From Desulfosarcina sp. (lineage in GTDB: Bacteria > Desulfobacterota > Desulfobacteria > Desulfobacterales > Desulfosarcinaceae), in NCBI GenBank assembly GCA_014237405.1, contig JABZFO010000115.1, forward strand, positions 1 through 64,000: a stretch of DNA of 64,000 bases. Direction: 5' to 3'. The position numbers were made by a program, and so were the translations under genes. Of the stretch, positions 41,462-56,258 are shown one piece after another; position 1 is the first letter of the stretch; each line of letters begins with the position of its first letter. The notes beneath the pieces were generated by a model. The model was not told the origin of the DNA. It searched no databases and saw nothing but the letters and a program-made list of their open reading frames with translations.

Positions 41462-41584
41462 GACCCGGACGAAATTAACTTTTGCCAACATAATTTCCCA
41501 TACCGATTCATAGGTCATCGATCGATGAAAATCCATTGACATCGGCCATACTTTTGGGTTTATTGAGTCCCGAGAACCATTGAG

Positions 41585-41840
41585 TTCATCCAGGCGCCCA
41601 AGGGGCATAAGTGCCTCGGCCCTAACAGGGAAAGCGGTGAAAATCCGCTGCGGACCCGCCACTGTAAGTGGGGACGAAAGCCGCGACAACTCACTGTCCG
41701 GCACTCAATTCTATTATTTGATGGTCAGAACTGCTTTTAAACAGAAGCTTCGACCATTAAAAAAAAAATAACGAATAGAGTTGAATGCCGGGCGGGAAGA
41801 GGCGGCCGGTAGAACGAACCACGAGCCAGGAGACCTGCCA
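41585..41840 (+). promoter_or_regulatory. Cobalamin (B12) riboswitch with extended variable arm
   Basis: cagggaaagcggtgaaaatccgctgcggacccgccactgtaagtggggacgaaagccgcgac ... gagccaggagacctgcc. Confidence 0.95.
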
Positions 41841-41900
41841 GGATGATACAATCGAAAGCGCCTTCGCGGTCAAGGCTGATTCAGTGATCTGGCAGAACCT

Positions 41901-41936
41901 GCCCCGCCTTGATATCTTTCGAGGCGGGGCTTTTTA
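41901..41936 (+). terminator. Riboswitch expression-platform terminator
   Basis: gccccgcctt gatatctttc gaggcggggc ttttt between riboswitch and btuF. Confidence 0.85.
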
Positions 41937-41953
41937 TTGCCGGAGAAAAACCA

Positions 41954-42948
41954 TGGGAAACCAATTGGTAGCCATGCAACCATTTGAAACCGCTACACCA
42001 CGATATCCAGAAAGCGACTTCCGGAAAAAACGTTTGGGACAGCCTCTTAATCTGTTTCTTTTCATCCTCTGCCTGCTGATCATTCTCCCCGCTCCCAGTG
42101 CGGCAAAAATGGTCACCGATCAGTTGGGGCGACGGGTCCGCATGCCGGACCACCCCCAACGTATCGTCTCCATGGCGCCCAGCATCACCGAAATCGTTTT
42201 TGCTTTAGACCTGTCCAACCGACTGGTGGGCGCCACCCAGTTCAGCGACTACCCGCCCGCAGTCAAGGCGCTGCCCAAAGTGGGCTCATACGTGCACCTG
42301 GATGTGGAAAAAATCGTCGCCCTTCACCCCGACCTGTGCATCGCTGTCAAGGACGGCAACCCCATCTCCGTCGTCAGCAAACTGGAGTCGGTAGGCATCC
42401 CGGTCTATGCGGTGGACCCGATAAATCTGGACGCGGTCATGGACACTCTGCTGGAATTGGGGCGCCTGCTGGATGTGAACGACCGGGCAAAGGCCATTGT
42501 GGCCGAGATGGCCGATCGGATTCAGCGGGTGCAACAGCGCGTATCCGGCGCTTCTAATCGGCCCGCCGTCTTCTTCCAGATCGGCATCTCCCCCATCGTC
42601 TCCGTGGGCACAAAGACCTTTATCCACGAGTTGATCGTCATGGCCGGCGGAACCAATTTGGCTCACGGCAAGACCCCCTACCCCCGCTTTTCCAAAGAGC
42701 AGGTGATCGTCCTGCGTCCGGAGGTGATTATCATTACCTCCATGGCCCGGATGGCGGTGTTCGAACAGGTGAAAGCCGACTGGCAGCAGTGGCGGGAGCT
42801 GCCGGCCGTTAAAAACGACCGGATCTACCTTGTGGACTCCAATGTGCTGGATCGCCCCACACCCCGCCTGGTGGACGGTTTGGAATTGCTGGCCCAGCTG
42901 ATCCACCCGGATCGTTTCAACGCCGTGGGAACAGGGGCACAGCCGTGA
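41954..42948 (+). CDS. btuF: Cobalamin/Fe-siderophore periplasmic binding protein (BtuF-like)
   Basis: RIVSMAPSITEIVFALDLSNRLVGATQFSDYPPAVKALPKVGSYVHLDVEKIVALHPDLCIA; downstream of B12 riboswitch. Confidence 0.85.
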
Positions 42949-43864
42949 CCAAAACGCCGTCATCACTGCCCGTTAACATAGCCCTGGTATCCCTGGTACT
43001 GGCCCTGCTGCTCGTGGCGGCCATCGTGTTGGGCCTGGCCATGGGATCTTCAGGCGGCAGCATCACGGCGGTATGGGCCACGCTTTTCCAGGACGGTACC
43101 GGCGATGCCATGCAAGGCGCCATCATCTGGCGCATCCGCTTTCCCCGGGTGCTGCTGGCAGCGCTGGTAGGTGCGGCCCTGTCGCTGGGCGGTCTGGTGT
43201 TCCAGGCGCTGCTCAAAAACCCGCTGGCCGAACCCTATATCCTGGGCGTCTCCGGCGGTGCGGCCATCGGCGCCATCATTGGCATCATCCTGGGCCTGTC
43301 CCGCATCCCCGGCGTAGGCGTCACCGCTTTCCTGGGAAGCCTGGCCACCTTGCTGCTGATCATCATCATCTCTTCCGGCCGGGCCATTCTGGTCAAAGAC
43401 GCCCTGCTGCTGTCCGGCGTCATGATCAACGCCTTTTGCAGCGCGGTGATCATGTTTTTGCTCTCCATCACCCAGGATTCCAGCCTGCACAACATCATCT
43501 TCTGGCTCATGGGGGATCTCTCCGCCTCCCAGATCCACCATGTGGGCATGCTCGCCGCCGTACTCCTGCCCTGCTTTATCGTGATCTTCATTCATTCCAA
43601 CCGGATGAACCTGGTGCTGTTGGGCAGCGACATGGCCGCATCCATGGGCGTCAACGTGCGTCTGGTGACCCTGGTGCTGCTCGTCACCACCTCGCTGATG
43701 ATCAGCGTCACGGTCAGCCAGTGCGGCCTTATCGGATTCGTGGGCCTGGTCATTCCCCACCTGCTGCGGCTGGTCATCGGCCCCGACCACCGCCCGGCGG
43801 GGTGATCACGGCCATGATCGGGGCACCACTGTTTATCATTCTGCTGAGGCGATCAAAACAATGA
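42945..43864 (+). pseudogene. btuC: FecCD/BtuC permease, frame-disrupted near 43797
   Basis: WRIRFPRVLLAALVGAALSLGGLVFQALLKNPLAEPYILGVSGGAAIGA ... GFVGLVIPHLLRLVIGPDHR; conserved C-terminus GVITAMIGAPLFIILLRRSKQ* follows immediately in another frame. Confidence 0.85.
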
Positions 43865-44667
43865 GTGCTGCCGTTCGCGTCAACCGGTTGAGCTGTTCCT
43901 ATCCCCGGGCACCGGTGCTGTGGGACCTGTCATTCGAGATGGCCGGCGCCGAGTTTTTCATCGTCATCGGCCCCAACGGCTCGGGCAAGACCACGCTGGT
44001 CAAGGCCCTGGCCGGTCTGCTGCCCGTTTCCGGTGGTGACATCTTCATACAGGACCGGCCGCTGCGGCAGATCAACAGGAAAGAACTGGCCCGGCGGGTG
44101 GCATATGTAGCCCAGACCAGCGCCGACGACAGCCCCTTTACCGTTCGGGAGATGGTCCTCATGGGCCGGTCCCCCTACCTGGGTGTCTTGGGTGTGGAGG
44201 GGAAGACGGATATTGACATCGCCCGCCAGGCCATCGCGTTCACCGGTCTGAACCACCTGTCGGGCCGCCGCATCGGCAGCCTTAGCGGTGGCGAACGCCA
44301 GCGGGCCCATATCGCCCGGGCCATCTGCCAACAGCCGGACCTAATCCTGCTGGACGAACCCACCGCCGCCCTGGACCTGGCCCACCAGATCCGCATCATG
44401 AATCTGATGAAACGGCTGAAGCGGGAGAACGGCACCACAGTGGTGATGGTATCCCACGACATCAACCTGGCGGCCATGTACGCCGACCGTCTGCTTCTGC
44501 TGGTAAACGGTCGCGTGGCGGCTTGCGGCCCGCCAGCGCAGGTCATCAACGAAAAGACCCTTGCCGGGGCCTACGGCTGCCGCCTCCTGGTGGACCGAAG
44601 CCCGGCCGGCCCCTGGCCCCGGGTGAGCCTGATACCGGAGGGCGGAGGACTGATGACGGAGGACTGA
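43861..44667 (+). CDS. btuD: ABC transporter ATPase (BtuD/FecE-like)
   Basis: GPNGSGKTTLVKAL; LSGGERQRAHIARAICQQPDLILLDEPTAALDLAHQ. Confidence 0.95.
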   Translation: MSAAVRVNRLSCSYPRAPVLWDLSFEMAGAEFFIVIGPNGSGKTTLVKALAGLLPVSGGDIFIQDRPLRQINRKELARRVAYVAQTSADDSPFTVREMVLMGRSPYLGVLGVEGKTDIDIARQAIAFTGLNHLSGRRIGSLSGGERQRAHIARAICQQPDLILLDEPTAALDLAHQIRIMNLMKRLKRENGTTVVMVSHDINLAAMYADRLLLLVNGRVAACGPPAQVINEKTLAGAYGCRLLVDRSPAGPWPRVSLIPEGGGLMTED

Positions 44668-44932: not shown

Positions 44933-45571
44933 ATGATCGACATCTTCAACAGCGGCGGGCCGGTAATGGTCCCTCTGCTCCTTTGCTCTCTGCTCTCTCT
45001 CACGGTGATCATCGAACGCGGCATCTTCTGGACCATCGTAGGCATGCGATCCAGCCAGCCCCTGGTGAACGAGGTGATGGAACTGTGCCAGGTGGGAAAC
45101 TGGGAGGGGGTCCGAAAGATTGCAGACGGCTCAAAAAGCTACGTCATCCGGATTCTCATTTCCGGCATCCTGCACCGCAACTACTCAATGGTCAAGGCCA
45201 TGGAGTCGGCCGCAGCCGATGAGATCGCTCGTATGCGCCGCTACATGGGTGTGCTGGACACCATCATCACCGTATCTCCCCTGCTGGGCATCTTCGGCAC
45301 GGTGATCGGCATTATCGGTTCTTTTGATATGCTGGGTGCAGGCGGCATCGATCATCCGGAGCTGGTCACCCGGGGCATCGCCCAAGCCCTGATCACCACG
45401 GCCTCGGGTCTGGGCATCGCCATTCTCACGGTCTTTCCCTTCAACTACTTCAACGCCCGCATCGAACGGGCCGCCCGGTTCATTGAAAAGTACGCCACCA
45501 GCCTGGAAATCATCTACGAGAAGATTGCCGACAAAAACGGATCCGCCGTGGAGGCCGATCATGAAGGTTGA
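44933..45571 (+). CDS. exbB: ExbB/TolQ/MotA proton-channel family protein
   Basis: VLDTIITVSPLLGIFGTVIGIIGSFDMLG...GIAQALITTASGLGIAILTVFPFNYF. Confidence 0.93.
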   Translation: MIDIFNSGGPVMVPLLLCSLLSLTVIIERGIFWTIVGMRSSQPLVNEVMELCQVGNWEGVRKIADGSKSYVIRILISGILHRNYSMVKAMESAAADEIARMRRYMGVLDTIITVSPLLGIFGTVIGIIGSFDMLGAGGIDHPELVTRGIAQALITTASGLGIAILTVFPFNYFNARIERAARFIEKYATSLEIIYEKIADKNGSAVEADHEG

Positions 45572-45848
45572 TCTGGGCAATCATCGCAAGGCTCGCATCG
45601 ACATGCTGCCGCTCATCGACATCGTTTTTCTGCTGCTGGTCTTTTTCATCTACGCCATGCTCTCCATGGCCGTTCACCATGCGCTGCCCGTGGCCCTGCC
45701 CGTCTCTTCCACCGGGTCTGAAAAAGATCCCGGTGTGCTGCTGTTTGCCGACAACAGCATCACTTACCAGACCCTTTACGGAGTCATCGACCAGATCAAG
45801 ATGGCGGGAATCAGCCGTCTCTCCCTCGAGTGTGAAAGGCAGCCATAG
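45561..45848 (+). CDS. exbD: ExbD/TolR family protein, internally shortened
   Basis: RKARIDMLPLIDIVFLLLVFFIYAMLSMAVHHALPVALPVSSTGSEKDPGVLLFADNSITYQTLYGVIDQIKMAGISRLSLECE; only 95 aa. Confidence 0.88.
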   Translation: MKVDLGNHRKARIDMLPLIDIVFLLLVFFIYAMLSMAVHHALPVALPVSSTGSEKDPGVLLFADNSITYQTLYGVIDQIKMAGISRLSLECERQP

Positions 45849-46601
45849 ATGCGGCGGATTCTGCCGGCTTTTGTGATGGCGTCCCTGATCCACGCGGCCC
45901 TGTTGATGGCGGACGCGAAGTGGCTCATCCACCACGCCCCTCTTGCTCCCCGGACCCAGGTGATCACCATGCGACTGGTGGATCGGGTACCGTACTGCCC
46001 GCCGACCATCAACACGCTTCCTATACCGCCGCCTCCGATACCGCCAGAGCCCAGAAAGCCGGCAGTCAATCCGAAACCTGTAGTTAAAAAATCCAAAACT
46101 TTCAAGAAAAAGCCACCGGTGAAAAAAGTCCCGGTTCCTTCACCATCGAAGCCCACCCCCATGTTGGCCGACCATGAACCCGATCCGGAACCGGCGGTGC
46201 CTTTGCCGGAAACGGTATCACAACCGGCCACATCAAGTCCGGCTGAGCCCGCCAAGGCATCTCCTTCGGCAACTTCCAGAGATTCGGACAAACCGCCAAG
46301 TGAGCCGACAGAAGCAATGGCGACAGTCGTCATGGCAAAACCTCGCTACAGCGTAAATCCACCGCCGGTGTATCCTTCGATCGCCCGCCGGCGAGGTTAC
46401 CATGGAACGGTAATCCTTGAGGTATTCGTGAAGGAGAACGGCCGGGTCGGCGATCTGCGCATCTTTCAATCCAGCACACACAAGCTGCTGGACCGGGCAG
46501 CGATGAAGGCCGTCAAGCGCTGGCAGTTCGAGCCGGGCCGGCATGGAGATCGAACCGTGGCTATGTGGGTGCGGGTACCGGTTGAATTCCGCTTGCAGTA
46601 G
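45849..46601 (+). CDS. tonB: TonB family protein
   Basis: Pro-rich linker; C-terminal NPPPVYPSIARRRGYHGTVILEVFVKENGRVGDLRIFQSSTHKLLDRAAMKAVKRWQFEP. Confidence 0.92.
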   Translation: MRRILPAFVMASLIHAALLMADAKWLIHHAPLAPRTQVITMRLVDRVPYCPPTINTLPIPPPPIPPEPRKPAVNPKPVVKKSKTFKKKPPVKKVPVPSPSKPTPMLADHEPDPEPAVPLPETVSQPATSSPAEPAKASPSATSRDSDKPPSEPTEAMATVVMAKPRYSVNPPPVYPSIARRRGYHGTVILEVFVKENGRVGDLRIFQSSTHKLLDRAAMKAVKRWQFEPGRHGDRTVAMWVRVPVEFRLQ

Positions 46602-50274: not shown

Positions 50275-52293
50275 TCATTGAACCCCTTCTGCCGGGGTTA
50301 ACCGCCCGGTAACACCGTTGAGCAAGGCGTCAAAGGCCATCTTCAATACAGGAGGCAGCGGTTTGTCGAAGGCAAAGGCCTGTTTTTCATGAATCGGTTT
50401 ACCGGCGATCGCTGCGGCCATCTGATCGCACCAGGCTTCGAATCCGCCGATATCCGCGATCAGTCCGCGTTCATAGTGATCGCTGATGGCCAGGGCTGCT
50501 TCGATGAACCCGGCATATTCGGGGTCCAGCAACAGGTGCTCCAGCTCGCGGTTCAGCGTATTCTTCTCAATGCCGCAGTTGCAGTCGCCCACCAGACCGA
50601 AGAGGCTGATCCGCCGGTCCTTGAGCCGCTGAAAAATATTGCGCTCCCGAACAATGCCGTTTTGTTTGAACACCGCTTCCCGGACCCCGGCATAAACCGC
50701 CTTGGCAATGAGTTCGCCCATTTTGGAGTGGCCGCCGGCATTGTCGATCCGGGGACCTTGGCCTTCCACCACGATGATGTTGTCCGTGCCGGTGCCCGTG
50801 GCTGGATTCACCAGGGGCGTTTGACTGCTGCGGATGTCCATATCCCACAGCGCGGCGGTCTTGGCTTCGGTGGCGGAGATGATGGCCCGGTTCATGGCTC
50901 GGGGGGTCAGCCGCATGTTGGACAGGATCACCATATTGATGGTGCCGGGCTCGTAAAAGGCGCCGACGTCCTCACCCATGCGCACGGCATTGGAGCATAC
51001 CCCCGCCGTGACCAGGGCGTAGACGGTCATCTCCTTGAACTGCTGTCGCTGAACCGACAGATTGTCCATATCCGCACCGGTGAAGAGCAGGCTGGTGTCG
51101 GAAAAACTCATGTCAATGGATTGGATGAGCTGGTTACGTGAGGTTTCGAGGCCGATATGGTGGTACAAACCCCACACCTGGGGCGGCGAGTAGCTGTTGC
51201 CCACGTGGCGAATATTCCGGCGAAAGCCCTCCAGCGTGGAGGAAACAGACATGGGAGACGCCAGGTGGATAAGCAGAGTTTTATGGATGTAGTCGTTGAC
51301 GGTGCTCTCCACGGTTTCTGCGGCATCCACGTAATCCAGATCCAGTGCGATGGGTCGCGACGCGATCCGGCCATTCTCCCTCACCAGCGGCAGCGCGGCG
51401 AATTCATCCCCGTATATCCGCGATGCCAGACAGCTGACAAAATACCCGGTCCGGCTCGACAGGCGGCAGGTCAAATCACAGGGAAAATAGAGGATGCGTC
51501 CGTTTTTAACCGCATCAACATCTTTCCATCCGGGCCGGTTCAGCAGTGTCATGGCGGCCTCACGGTCCCCGCCGCAGCCATAGATCACCTGAGGATTAAA
51601 CGCCTGCCAATCCTCAAGCGTCACCGGCACAATACTGCCGGGTTTTCCCAGCTTCGGCGGGATCCCCCCGGCCAGCCTGATCATCTCATTTTGAAAGGAA
51701 TCATCACCGGGCGTCATCACCTGGTCCCGGCCCATGAGGCGGATCACCCGCTTGCGTCCGGATGCGGGGATCGGGGCAATTTTACCTGCCGTATGCGCCA
51801 AGTCCGCCTGGATAGCGCGGATGAGATCATCGGCTGCGTCGTCCCGGTCAAAGAGCTGACCGAGCAGCCGTATAGAGAGGTAGAGGTCGTCCAAAGAGGC
51901 AAGCGGCAGCTGAATCAGCCGGGGTCGGTCCTTGCCGACGTAAGCCTCGACTACGGACTGATGCAGGTCATCAAGAAAGATGACATCGGGTTCCAGGGAG
52001 TCGATCAAGTCCAGGGAGGGGGCGAAGAAGCCGCCGACCACGGGTTTGGTGGCGGCATCTGGTGGATAGGTATCATGGTAAGTGACCCCGCCGACCGCAT
52101 CACCGGCACCGATACGAAACAGGATCTCCGTGATGGACGGCACGATGGACACCACCTTTTGGGGCGGCTGAACAATGGTGAGGGTGCGTCCGGCCGCGTC
52201 CTGAAATTCAATCGGCAGGCCGGCAGGTGCCGTTAACGGAGACAGGAGAAAAAGGGCCAACAGGCCCATAACGAATCGTGCAAGCAATCGCAT
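50275..52293 (-). CDS. Fusion of BtuF-like periplasmic binding domain and CbiZ adenosylcobinamide amidohydrolase
   Basis: Signal peptide; KVVSIVPSITEILFRIGAGDAVGGVTYHDTYPPDAATKPVVGG; C-terminal half NMVILSNMRLTPRAMNRAIISATEAKTAALWDMDIRSSQTPLVNPATGTGTDNIIVVEGQG (CbiZ-like). Confidence 0.85.
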   Translation of the reverse strand: MRLLARFVMGLLALFLLSPLTAPAGLPIEFQDAAGRTLTIVQPPQKVVSIVPSITEILFRIGAGDAVGGVTYHDTYPPDAATKPVVGGFFAPSLDLIDSLEPDVIFLDDLHQSVVEAYVGKDRPRLIQLPLASLDDLYLSIRLLGQLFDRDDAADDLIRAIQADLAHTAGKIAPIPASGRKRVIRLMGRDQVMTPGDDSFQNEMIRLAGGIPPKLGKPGSIVPVTLEDWQAFNPQVIYGCGGDREAAMTLLNRPGWKDVDAVKNGRILYFPCDLTCRLSSRTGYFVSCLASRIYGDEFAALPLVRENGRIASRPIALDLDYVDAAETVESTVNDYIHKTLLIHLASPMSVSSTLEGFRRNIRHVGNSYSPPQVWGLYHHIGLETSRNQLIQSIDMSFSDTSLLFTGADMDNLSVQRQQFKEMTVYALVTAGVCSNAVRMGEDVGAFYEPGTINMVILSNMRLTPRAMNRAIISATEAKTAALWDMDIRSSQTPLVNPATGTGTDNIIVVEGQGPRIDNAGGHSKMGELIAKAVYAGVREAVFKQNGIVRERNIFQRLKDRRISLFGLVGDCNCGIEKNTLNRELEHLLLDPEYAGFIEAALAISDHYERGLIADIGGFEAWCDQMAAAIAGKPIHEKQAFAFDKPLPPVLKMAFDALLNGVTGRLTPAEGVQ

Positions 52294-52433: not shown

Positions 52434-53717
52434 CTATTTCGAGAAAAAGCCAAATACCGCCGTATCAATAAAGCAGGTACTGCTGCTTCCGCCGCCACCC
52501 GATCCGCTGCCGGCGGTTCCTTCCGTGGTAAAGGCGACCATAATGGGATTGAGATTGGTGGAGATCTTCTCGTCGATGGTGTCATCGGAGGTGTCGAGCA
52601 CGGTCACCTCAGCATCGGTCTGGTTGCAGATCCAGAGCATGCCGTTTTGGTCCGCATAGGCACCGGACTGCATGCCGGCAATATTCTTTCCCGTCAGATC
52701 GGCATGGACCGGCCCGCCGACCGCACCCGTCGTCGGTGAAAAGCCATAGACGGTATTGTCGCCCCAGCCCGCATAGCCGATGAAATAACCCTTGTCTGCA
52801 GAAACGATCGCCATGCCCGATATGTTGCCGTAGGGATGACTGCTGGCATCGCCATCATCCACCAGAAGGGCGGTGTCATAGTTGGACGGGTCGATGGTGA
52901 TGATGCCGCCGGAGTATACCGGTGGCGTGGAGAAAAGGCTGCCCGCGCCCTGAAGGTAGATGGTGTCGTTGGCGGCAAGATACTGGATGGCGCCGGGATT
53001 TTTTATCGGCAGCGGGATGCCCTTGACGCCGTCGGTGTTGGCAACGCCGGTATCGATCTCCGTATCGGTGGCGGTGTCAAACAGGGCCACATAGGCGGTA
53101 TTTGGTTGACCCCACGGAAAGCCACTGCGATCCAAGCGCTGAATACAGATGTACAAGACGCCATCGACGATGATGCCGTTGTCCATCTCAGGGATGTCGT
53201 CGAAATCGGCGTAACTGCTCAGATCCAACTCCCCGATTTTAAACTCAGCCTCGCTGGCGGCGGACGGGTTGACGATCCAGGCCTTGGTTTTGCCGTAACG
53301 CAGCACGTAGGCCTTCTGATCATTTAAAAAAATCATTGCGTGGGGATTGGCGCTGCCGGTTTCACCGCTGTCCAATACGGAGTACTGGTAAACGGGTGTG
53401 TCCGGAGCAGCGATGTCGAACTTGGTGATGCTGTCGGATTGGTAGCGTGCGATGCGATAGAAGTAGTTCTCGTAGGCCGCGACCATAATGTCCGAAATGG
53501 TCGGCAACAGGTCGTTCTCAACAGTGCGCGGGCCGCCTACCGGATCGACGCTGATGATGGAATGGGCACCGCTGGAGTAATCAGCCGCCACAGTGGCGAC
53601 CACCGCGGTCTGCACGACTTCAGAGAAAGCCAACGTTGGAATTGAGGCAATGATGATCGCGGTCAACAGCCCGACCCGAATGAATGGATTTCTGACTCGT
53701 CTCAATGGGTGGTTCAT
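52434..53717 (-). CDS. Secreted beta-propeller-like protein with CFIDTA C-terminal motif
   Basis: Signal peptide; repeated NISGMAIVSADKGYFIGYAGW / NGMLWICNQTDAEVTVLDTSDDTI; C-terminus GSGGGGSSSTCFIDTAVFGFFSK. Confidence 0.65.
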   Translation of the reverse strand: MNHPLRRVRNPFIRVGLLTAIIIASIPTLAFSEVVQTAVVATVAADYSSGAHSIISVDPVGGPRTVENDLLPTISDIMVAAYENYFYRIARYQSDSITKFDIAAPDTPVYQYSVLDSGETGSANPHAMIFLNDQKAYVLRYGKTKAWIVNPSAASEAEFKIGELDLSSYADFDDIPEMDNGIIVDGVLYICIQRLDRSGFPWGQPNTAYVALFDTATDTEIDTGVANTDGVKGIPLPIKNPGAIQYLAANDTIYLQGAGSLFSTPPVYSGGIITIDPSNYDTALLVDDGDASSHPYGNISGMAIVSADKGYFIGYAGWGDNTVYGFSPTTGAVGGPVHADLTGKNIAGMQSGAYADQNGMLWICNQTDAEVTVLDTSDDTIDEKISTNLNPIMVAFTTEGTAGSGSGGGGSSSTCFIDTAVFGFFSK

Positions 53718-55801
53718 GGTTCGCTCCTTTTTTGTGTGGGTTGCTGGGTTGAGAATGTATATTTAACGGAGGCAAAAAACGACCTGCCGGGCAAGGGAAA
53801 CCCGTTGAAATCTTCATACCTCTCATCGGCCAGGTTCTTTCCTTCGAGCCAGAACATCCACGATCCGAAAGCCCAGGAAATGCCGGCATTGACTTCCTTC
53901 TTGTCCACTGCCGGCAGCAGATTGGCCGCATCGTAATACATGCCGGTTTCCATGACGTATTCACCATACACGGTGACGCCGGCATAGCGGGCCTCGATCC
54001 GCCCGAGTAAGGAATTTTCGAATCGGCCGGGAAGGCGCTTACCATCAAAAGCTTTGATGTCGCTCTCGTTCTTCGGATCCTGGTGGGTAAGGTTCGCGAC
54101 CGCCCGGAAACGATCCAGAAATTCGGCAGTACCGCTGAGCTCGACGCCCCGAATCAAGGCACCGGACATGTTTACGGATTTGCCGATCCCCCGGGCATCG
54201 TAGACCCGGGTGATCAAATCTTCCGCATCATTGTGAAAGTAGGCTGCATTGAGGGAAAGCCGCTGAAGCCAATCGACAGGGGCAGCCCACTGACACTCGG
54301 CGCCGATATCGAAATTGATTCCTCTCTCCTCCTTGAGATCCGGATTGCCGACGAACAGGCCACGATCACCGAAAAGCTCGAAGAAGGAGGGCTGGCGCAC
54401 GTATTTGGCCAGATTGGACTTGAGCTTCAGCCATGCCAGCGGCCCGTAGACCAGACCAATTTGCGGGGTGAGATAATTGTCGCTGCGGTTCTCTTGCCCA
54501 AGGGGTGTGCCCCAGATGCTGGTCCCGGCCGCGAGGGTGTCTTCAATCCAGCTATAACGGGCGGCCGGTGTGACGATCAGGGATTCGTCAAACAAGAAGA
54601 TGCTGTCCTGCAGCCCCAAAGAAAACGTGTCGCGCTGGCTGTCCCTCGGGTTGGATTTGCCCAGATGATCTTCACTCTCATACGTCTCGTGGAGCAGGTT
54701 GACGGTACCGATCAGGTTCTGCCAGTCACCCATCCATTCGACGAACATATCCGCATTGAACCGATCGGTAGTGTAGGTGTTGTGCTGTTCATCCAGCCCG
54801 ATGTGACCGCCCCGGTCGTCATACTCCTCTTCTTTCCAGGTGTAGGACAGTCGGGTGTTGGTATTGAGATGGGCGGCCGTGAGATCGTCCGCTGTCAGCT
54901 TGGCGGTGGTGATGTTGCGGATGGTGTCCAGGGTCGAACGGGTCAGGGGGCTGTTGTTCCAGCTGGGGATGCCCTGATCCTTGATGAAGAACTGATTCAC
55001 CAAATCCAGCCGCAGGGTATCCGAAGCGTCATATCCGGCCTTGGCCAGCAGGTTGGCCTGTTCCACCTGGGCGTTGTTCCGCTTTTCTACGCGATCGTCG
55101 TTGGGATTCCATTCCGTCCCATTGTCGTTCAGGATCTCAAAATCATTGTCAGAAGCAAGGTAGTCCGCTGAGATCAGATAATCGAAACGCCCCGGCTTGT
55201 GATTGATGAAGCCGTTGATCTTTCGGCTGTTGAAGGAACCGTATCCACCGGATGCACTGACATTGAGCCCCTTTTTGGATCGCAGGGTACGAATGTTAAC
55301 CGCTCCGCCGATGGTAGAGCCGCCAAAGTTGATGGGAATGGCGCCCCGGTAGATATCGATGGCGGCGACATCCGACAGGGCAATGGTACTGAGGTCGACG
55401 CCGCCGCCGGAGGCATCGTTGAGCAGAATGCCGTCCATGAAGACCAGCACCTGATCACTGGATGACCCCCGCAGGGAGACCGAAGAAAACGAACCGAGTC
55501 CGCCCGACTGGCGCACCTGTACGCCCACTTCTTTTTCGATGATTTCAGCGATATTTTCGGTTTTTCCTTCAAAGGCTTCCCGCTGGATGGTGGTGGTCAT
55601 CACCGGTGTGATCTCCCTGTCCACATCACCGGTGCGCAAGGGCTCGTCCATCTTCTGTGCGGTGACGACCACGGCATCCATCATCACCGGCTGTTTGGAC
55701 GTTTCCTGTTCCGCTGCAAAACCGACGGCCGCAATAAACAGGCTGACCATCCCAATTCCCAATGCGACTAATCTCTGCATCCATCTCCTCCGGAAAAACA
55801 A
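53714..55801 (-). CDS. btuB: TonB-dependent cobalamin receptor (BtuB-like)
   Basis: Plug domain VGVQVRQSGGLGSFSSVSLRGSSSDQVLVFMDGILLNDASGGGVDLSTIALSDVAAIDIYRGAIPINFGGSTIGGAVNI; under a B12 riboswitch. Confidence 0.9.
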   Translation of the reverse strand: MFFRRRWMQRLVALGIGMVSLFIAAVGFAAEQETSKQPVMMDAVVVTAQKMDEPLRTGDVDREITPVMTTTIQREAFEGKTENIAEIIEKEVGVQVRQSGGLGSFSSVSLRGSSSDQVLVFMDGILLNDASGGGVDLSTIALSDVAAIDIYRGAIPINFGGSTIGGAVNIRTLRSKKGLNVSASGGYGSFNSRKINGFINHKPGRFDYLISADYLASDNDFEILNDNGTEWNPNDDRVEKRNNAQVEQANLLAKAGYDASDTLRLDLVNQFFIKDQGIPSWNNSPLTRSTLDTIRNITTAKLTADDLTAAHLNTNTRLSYTWKEEEYDDRGGHIGLDEQHNTYTTDRFNADMFVEWMGDWQNLIGTVNLLHETYESEDHLGKSNPRDSQRDTFSLGLQDSIFLFDESLIVTPAARYSWIEDTLAAGTSIWGTPLGQENRSDNYLTPQIGLVYGPLAWLKLKSNLAKYVRQPSFFELFGDRGLFVGNPDLKEERGINFDIGAECQWAAPVDWLQRLSLNAAYFHNDAEDLITRVYDARGIGKSVNMSGALIRGVELSGTAEFLDRFRAVANLTHQDPKNESDIKAFDGKRLPGRFENSLLGRIEARYAGVTVYGEYVMETGMYYDAANLLPAVDKKEVNAGISWAFGSWMFWLEGKNLADERYEDFNGFPLPGRSFFASVKYTFSTQQPTQKRSEP

Positions 55802-55840
55802 AAAAAATCCCCGAACCGATAGTAATTTCGATCCGGGGAT
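55798..55840 (-). terminator. Riboswitch expression-platform terminator upstream of btuB
   Basis: Minus-strand atccccggatcgaaattactatcggttcggggat followed by a T tract. Confidence 0.85.
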
Positions 55841-55907
55841 GTCCCTTTTTTATCCGCGGCAATCTGTTAAGAGCCGGACACCGTCCACGCGTTCTCGACT
55901 CATTTGT

Positions 55908-56065
55908 TCAGGCAGGTCTTCTGACTCACGGATCATCCTACCGGCCGCACCTTCCCGACAGCAGATGCCGTCAGTGGCGTTTTTGCGGCTTTCGTCCCCG
56001 ATTACAGCGGCGGGCCCGCCCCCGATTTGCACGGGGTTCCCCTTAGCTCTTTATGAGCCCCTGAA
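55908..56065 (-). promoter_or_regulatory. Cobalamin riboswitch (minus strand)
   Basis: Reverse complement: aggggaaccccgtgcaaatcgggggcgggcccgccgctgtaatcggggacgaaagccgc...gtcagaagacctgcc. Confidence 0.95.
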
Positions 56066-56258
56066 CTAAATTAGCCCAATTCATACCCGACTCGTATTTT
56101 TTGTCAAGCCATTTTCTCATCCATTGGCTGCGCGCACCGCTTCGCTGAGCACGATGCTCGTTCAGGCTGCCCACCGATTGTTTTCCAATGTACATCAAAA
56201 CACCCCTGTGTTATGGCTGTCCGGTCTTGTCCGTATGGATCGAAAGGGGAATTTCCAC

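Follow-up and report, generated by a model that had tools for sequence, protein, structure and literature searches.

An exported binding protein–CbiZ fusion in Desulfosarcina and its relatives suggests corrinoid cleavage outside the inner membrane before import

Characterised CbiZ amidohydrolases are treated as cytoplasmic, and the locus described here raises the question of on which side of the inner membrane such an enzyme acts when it shares a chain with a signal peptide and a binding domain. The window, a 64,000-nucleotide stretch of Desulfosarcina sp. (contig JABZFO010000115.1), encodes such a chain. The first-pass annotation had placed a signal peptide, a corrinoid-binding domain and CbiZ in one polypeptide, and this organization was borne out by the open reading frame (ORF), Pfam, and hydropathy and motif analysis:

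50275..52293, minus strand: exported periplasmic binding protein (PBP)–CbiZ fusion, 672 aa (ORF, Pfam, AF2 model)
52222..52293, minus strand: signal peptide, residues 1–24, predicted cleavage between APA and G (sequence, hydropathy, GGAG upstream of ATG)
51481..52155, minus strand: Peripla_BP_2 (BtuF-superfamily) domain, residues 47–271 (Pfam, Foldseek, alignment)
50683..51261, minus strand: CbiZ adenosylcobinamide amidohydrolase domain, residues 345–537 (Pfam, alignment)
50278..50682, minus strand: helical C-terminal tail with CxC (GDCNCG), residues 538–672 (model, alignment)

The frame opens with ATG, and a GGAG Shine–Dalgarno-like motif lies 5 nt on its 5' side, so the start that includes the signal peptide is likely the real one. 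The N-terminus, MRLLARFVMGLLALFLLSPLTAPA followed by G, has the form of a signal peptidase I-type signal (12-residue hydropathy maximum 2.6). Peripla_BP_2 is matched with an E-value of 7.9e-19, far over the curated Pfam cut-off, and CbiZ (PF01955) over its full length (profile positions 3–191 of 191; E 4.7e-52; 177 bits against a cut-off of 27). The whole chain was modeled by AlphaFold (AF2) with pLDDT 89 and pTM 0.87. Foldseek matched the PBP half alone to solved structures, namely binding proteins for heme, siderophores and B12; no CbiZ structure in the PDB was matched. A Foldseek search of viral structures gave no match. The helical tail (~135 residues, CxC) is present in exported CbiZs and absent from the CbiZ of D. 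mccartyi. The fusion is the sole CbiZ in its genome. A chance or frame-shifted fusion was ruled out by 117 distinct homologues. CbiS (CbiZ–CobZ fusion, NF038002), likewise a bifunctional protein with a CbiZ half, was rejected as an identity on a score of 77 bits against a cut-off of 250, with no CobZ half seen and an exported chain.

These homologues came from a survey of fusion distribution around Desulfobacterota, which extended the single case of the first-pass annotation to 117 distinct PBP–CbiZ fusions. CbiZ was found in 95/292 genomes of the window's order, with 74 of 108 matches in open frames of at least 600 aa, and in 81/395 genomes phylum-wide, with 53 of 89 matches in such frames; each of 32 such frames taken as a sample from the wider phylum is a PBP–CbiZ fusion. 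Named carriers include Desulfonema magnum, strain NaphS2 and the cultured Desulfosarcina alkanivorans, Desulfospira joergensenii, Desulfoluna butyratoxydans and Desulfogranum marinum.

Export was assessed across this family, with signal peptides called by hydropathy and motif. A strong hydrophobic N-terminal segment preceded by K/R is present in 113 of the 114 fusions with a readable N-terminus, the exception being masked by N, and an export signal was found in 30 of 32 further phylum-wide fusions, the exceptions being one N-masked sequence and one with its signal beyond the stretch that was scored. No such segment occurs in any of 20 unfused CbiZs from across the phylum, and control sets scored as 45/52 positive for BtuF and 3/37 for cytoplasmic BtuD. 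Across the 117 fusions no convincing transmembrane (TM) segment separates the two domains; five marginal 19-residue stretches, considered as segments that might return CbiZ to the cytosol, all lie inside folded domains. Lipoprotein anchoring was likewise rejected, no lipobox occurring in any of the 117. In at least four genomes (L077, L080, L131 and L140; the ORFs of L077 and L131, as called, have an incomplete N-terminus) the chain is PBP–CbiZ–PBP and lies directly upstream of btuC–btuD, and one further genome encodes an exported CbiZ without an N-terminal PBP between a propeller gene and a separate btuF (L204:4796-6112). From the signals, the lack of an intervening TM segment, the triple fusions and the exported unfused CbiZ, we strongly infer that the CbiZ domain is exported to the periplasm, the side on which the first-pass annotation had placed it. 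For export and architecture, this evidence is as good as sequence can show. The opposing reading, a cytoplasmic fusion whose hydrophobic stretch is a non-functional signal, agrees with the treatment of characterised CbiZs, but is scarcely credible for a clade in which the signal is near-universal while unfused CbiZs have none, in which CbiZ can sit between two PBPs, and beside which one genome has an exported unfused CbiZ.

We then compared the CbiZ domains of 115 fusions and 19 other CbiZs in one alignment, the latter taking in those of Dehalococcoides, Paracoccus, Shinella and Cytobacillus. Ten polar positions (T405, T429, N435, E476, K478, T499, T501, T503, D504 and H522) are kept in 115/115 fused copies and present in nearly all of the 19 others; in the window protein N435, E476, K478, the TGTGTD segment at 499–504 and H522 are intact. 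Lack of CbiZ catalytic residues, which would have undone the initial proposal, is not what the family displays: the conserved polar positions, candidate catalytic residues, are retained throughout, and a degenerate CbiZ was rejected. By homology the fused CbiZ is a predicted amidohydrolase, and its substrate class is predicted likewise. An exported scavenger, in which CbiZ would bind corrinoids in the periplasm so as to concentrate or protect them with little or no catalysis, would suit the fusion to a binding domain and the riboswitch control shared with an uptake receptor; we regard it as improbable, the invariance of the complete polar set in 115 fused copies being unlike a binding-only domain.

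The binding domain required a more cautious name. Its fold is that of PF01497 behind a signal peptide, and V. cholerae BtuF (5ysc) stands together with heme and siderophore PBPs in its list of Foldseek matches. We aligned it to the E. coli BtuF sequence, in which we take Y50, W66, W85 and W196 to form the B12 cage and E72 and E202 to dock to BtuCD. The cage sites correspond to H73, F89, D108 and I221 in the window protein, and neighboring BtuF-like proteins vary at these sites too; the docking sites correspond to D95 and E227. Glutamate occupies the docking sites in 59/62 and 62/62 neighboring BtuF-type proteins and is kept in 4/4 second PBPs of triple fusions, whereas among the first PBPs of fusions the sites are acidic in just 62/114 and 85/114 (Fisher p 2.5e-9 and 9e-7, the relatives not being independent). 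Because docking glutamates are near-universal in BtuF-type and second PBPs and relaxed in first PBPs, the data suggest a division of labor in which the first PBP would deal with substrate on behalf of CbiZ, leaving the docking to BtuCD to a canonical BtuF that is either free-standing or part of the chain. Three cysteines, C240 within the PBP domain and C272 and C276 just C-terminal of it, are kept in 114, 114 and 113 of 114 fusions, and R185 and Q201 are invariant; the cysteines are possible ligands of a metal or of the corrinoid cobalt. Two of the three are rare at these sites in neighboring BtuFs. The domain thus shares its fold and Pfam family with BtuF and differs in its replaced cage aromatics, relaxed docking glutamates and invariant cysteines. 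The label "BtuF" given at first holds as membership of the BtuF/heme/siderophore PBP superfamily and is otherwise too specific: as judged from these positions, the domain is not a canonical BtuF, and a corrinoid is its predicted ligand.

On the minus strand, the fusion comes third among the genes of what looks like an operon, behind a cobalamin riboswitch, a terminator-like hairpin, a BtuB-like receptor and a propeller:

55894..56079, minus strand: cobalamin riboswitch heading the operon (Rfam RF00174, 106 bits)
55807..55840, minus strand: terminator-like hairpin with a 13 bp stem and T7, lying between the riboswitch and the receptor gene (sequence)
53714..55801, minus strand: BtuB-like TonB-dependent receptor (Pfam Plug and barrel)
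52434..53717, minus strand: BtuG-like beta-propeller, 427 aa, with N-terminal signal and C-terminal CFI-box (sequence, model, fold search)

The hairpin is a putative attenuator. The receptor scores 126 bits against TIGR01779 (BtuB equivalog), under the cut-off of 600, and is named BtuB-like because of the riboswitch and operon context. It had been described as lying next to the fusion; the two do share the operon but are not adjacent, the propeller gene standing between them. The sequence gives strong grounds for the export of the fusion, its domain order, its control by a riboswitch and its place in the operon.

The propeller was modeled with pLDDT 86, and BtuG chains or complexes fill the first 15 places among its PDB fold matches, ahead of YncE and AztD; a sequence search against the PDB returned chance or designed-propeller matches only. 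Its gene lies directly downstream of btuB in 27/30 cases and also follows btuB in fusion-less loci (L211–L216), and a DUF5074 match was found in 5/23 relatives. By BLASTP, BtuG was reported to be confined to Bacteroidetes (PMC6143338); on the basis of the model, the propeller is a candidate BtuG-like protein outside Bacteroidota. The Bacteroides BtuB–BtuG–BtuF locus resembles the window in its riboswitch, TonB receptor, propeller directly after the receptor and PBP. It differs in that the propellers are only 14–15% identical, that the window operon includes a CbiZ enzyme, and that no lipobox cysteine with the Bacteroidetes surface export signal was seen on the window propeller, which has the C-terminal CFI-box instead.

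Import functions are encoded on the opposite strand of the window, behind a second riboswitch:

41575..41856, plus strand: second cobalamin riboswitch, heading btuFCD–exbBD–tonB (RF00174, 99 bits)
41785..42948, plus strand: separate canonical BtuF, probably starting in truth downstream of 41785 (sequence)
42945..43864, plus strand: btuC, apparently broken (tblastn against the intact relative L063)
43861..44667, plus strand: BtuD-like ATPase (profile searches)
44933..46601, plus strand: ExbB, ExbD-like and TonB (Pfam for ExbB and TonB; ExbD by sequence reading)

The btuC gene lacks ~30 codons and has a frame shift near 43790 (region 43780–43864; tblastn against L063), which reflects either real loss or an assembly error.

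Genome context was counted on the same strand within 4.5 kb at 70 fusion loci with sufficient flanks. TonB-receptor, Btu, Exb/TonB, CobN-like or propeller genes lie nearby at 67/70 loci (by type, a TonB receptor at 53, a btuF/C/D gene at 32 and a CobN-like gene at 23), and cobalamin riboswitches were found in 16/16 related loci scanned. CbiB, CobS and CobT are present in 15/15 carrier genomes checked, so that each of these cells could rebuild from cobyric acid; CbiD, a marker of de novo ring synthesis, is present in 12 and absent from 3, and these at least three of the 15 look like salvagers. The CobN-like proteins of the 23 loci noted above have a signal at the N-terminus and a TM anchor at the C-terminus (e.g., L036:4249-8235, L126:4533-8447 and L149:10989-14930). 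They resemble HmuS, a heme dechelatase (PMC12583661), and their periplasmic substrates may be corrinoids or other tetrapyrroles. Such proteins would fit a pathway in which CbiZ and an exported HmuS/CobN-like chelatase dismantle corrinoids in the periplasm to recycle cobalt or the ring rather than to import cobyric acid. We consider this very improbable, since most loci, the window's included, lack a nearby CobN-like gene, many have btuF/C/D instead, and CbiB, CobS and CobT are universal in the carriers tested.

The most economical reading, and in our judgment the likely one, is that incoming corrinoids are cleaved to cobyric acid in the periplasm, with import and rebuilding to follow. The signal peptide would send the fusion to the periplasm. 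Corrinoids, probably passed on by the BtuG-like propeller, would come in by way of the BtuB-like receptor. Once captured by the N-terminal PBP domain, they would be presented to the attached CbiZ, a substrate hand-over that is speculative. CbiZ would hydrolyze the aminopropanol amide, so that a cobamide loses its nucleotide loop and cobinamide its aminopropanol, and would release cobyric acid or a close relative; this product would be carried to BtuCD by the separate BtuF or, in some genomes, by the second PBP on the same chain, and cytoplasmic CbiB, CobS and CobT would build it up again into a cobamide bearing the lower ligand that the cell prefers. The broader proposal of a periplasmic corrinoid-remodelling compartment in Desulfobacterota and relatives, in which cobamides enter by the BtuG-like propeller and BtuB, PBP–CbiZ strips the nucleotide loop and only cobyric acid is imported, leaving the inner-membrane importer indifferent to the lower ligand, has in our view an even chance of being right. 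Counting against the cleavage-and-rebuilding reading are the apparently broken btuC of the window, the pocket differences at the B12 cage, the de novo corrin capacity of most carriers tested, and the fact that characterised CbiZs were assayed on adenosylated corrinoids, forms that the periplasm may not supply.

Its main rival is an exported enzyme for cobinamide salvage only, cleaving cobinamide, and perhaps breakdown products too, but not complete cobamides, and so recovering precursor without remodelling the lower ligand. Archaeal CbiZ is a cobinamide enzyme, and in the tree a long distance separates the exported clade from the CbiZs of alphaproteobacteria, which makes it unsafe to carry bacterial-type specificity over to it. 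However, many bacteria import cobinamide intact and phosphorylate it by CobU, so periplasmic cleavage would gain little, and the three CbiD-less carriers would profit more from cobamide remodelling. We hold cobinamide-only salvage to be unlikely.

Known systems place the fusion in relief. The CbiZ of Rhodobacter sphaeroides and Methanosarcina (adenosylcobinamide/pseudo-B12 amidohydrolase, PF01955) shares the whole domain, the polar positions and the association with corrinoid-transport genes; it is treated as cytoplasmic and lacks a PBP, whereas the fusion is exported behind a PBP and bears the helical CxC tail. The BtuD–CbiZ fusion of Bacillota (Cytobacillus spongiae, L222:2918-4387) also ties CbiZ physically to the BtuFCD importer, but on the cytoplasmic ATPase, so that the same reaction would be placed on opposite membrane faces. 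No description of an exported CbiZ was found in the largely open-access literature searched. A link between cobamide remodelling and uptake has been raised for CbiZ and CbiR and left open (PMC7733943), and dependence on partners for corrinoids has been proposed for sulfate reducers (PMC10553843). Many sulfate-reducing and related bacteria fuse CbiZ to a secreted corrinoid-binding-type protein, which suggests that B12-like molecules are dismantled outside the inner membrane before import. The fusion ties the enzyme physically to the uptake side in secreted form and in cultured strains, making the coupling directly testable. If periplasmic cleavage is correct, its separation from cytoplasmic rebuilding would explain how the cell's own finished cofactor is spared, and genome-based prediction of corrinoid sharing among sulfate reducers would change.

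In the CbiZ tree, the window protein stands beside that of D. alkanivorans and of a genome of the same genus. A single origin of exported CbiZs is not rejected (AU p 0.43), with deep placement unsure because of long branches (D. mccartyi, Cytobacillus, Shinella). The triple-fusion state requires two changes on the tree and may have arisen twice. Unfused, signal-less CbiZs of ~388 aa (L002, L003, L006, L008, L010 and similar) form a separate clade, which coexists with the fusion in some genomes (e.g., G246 and G080).
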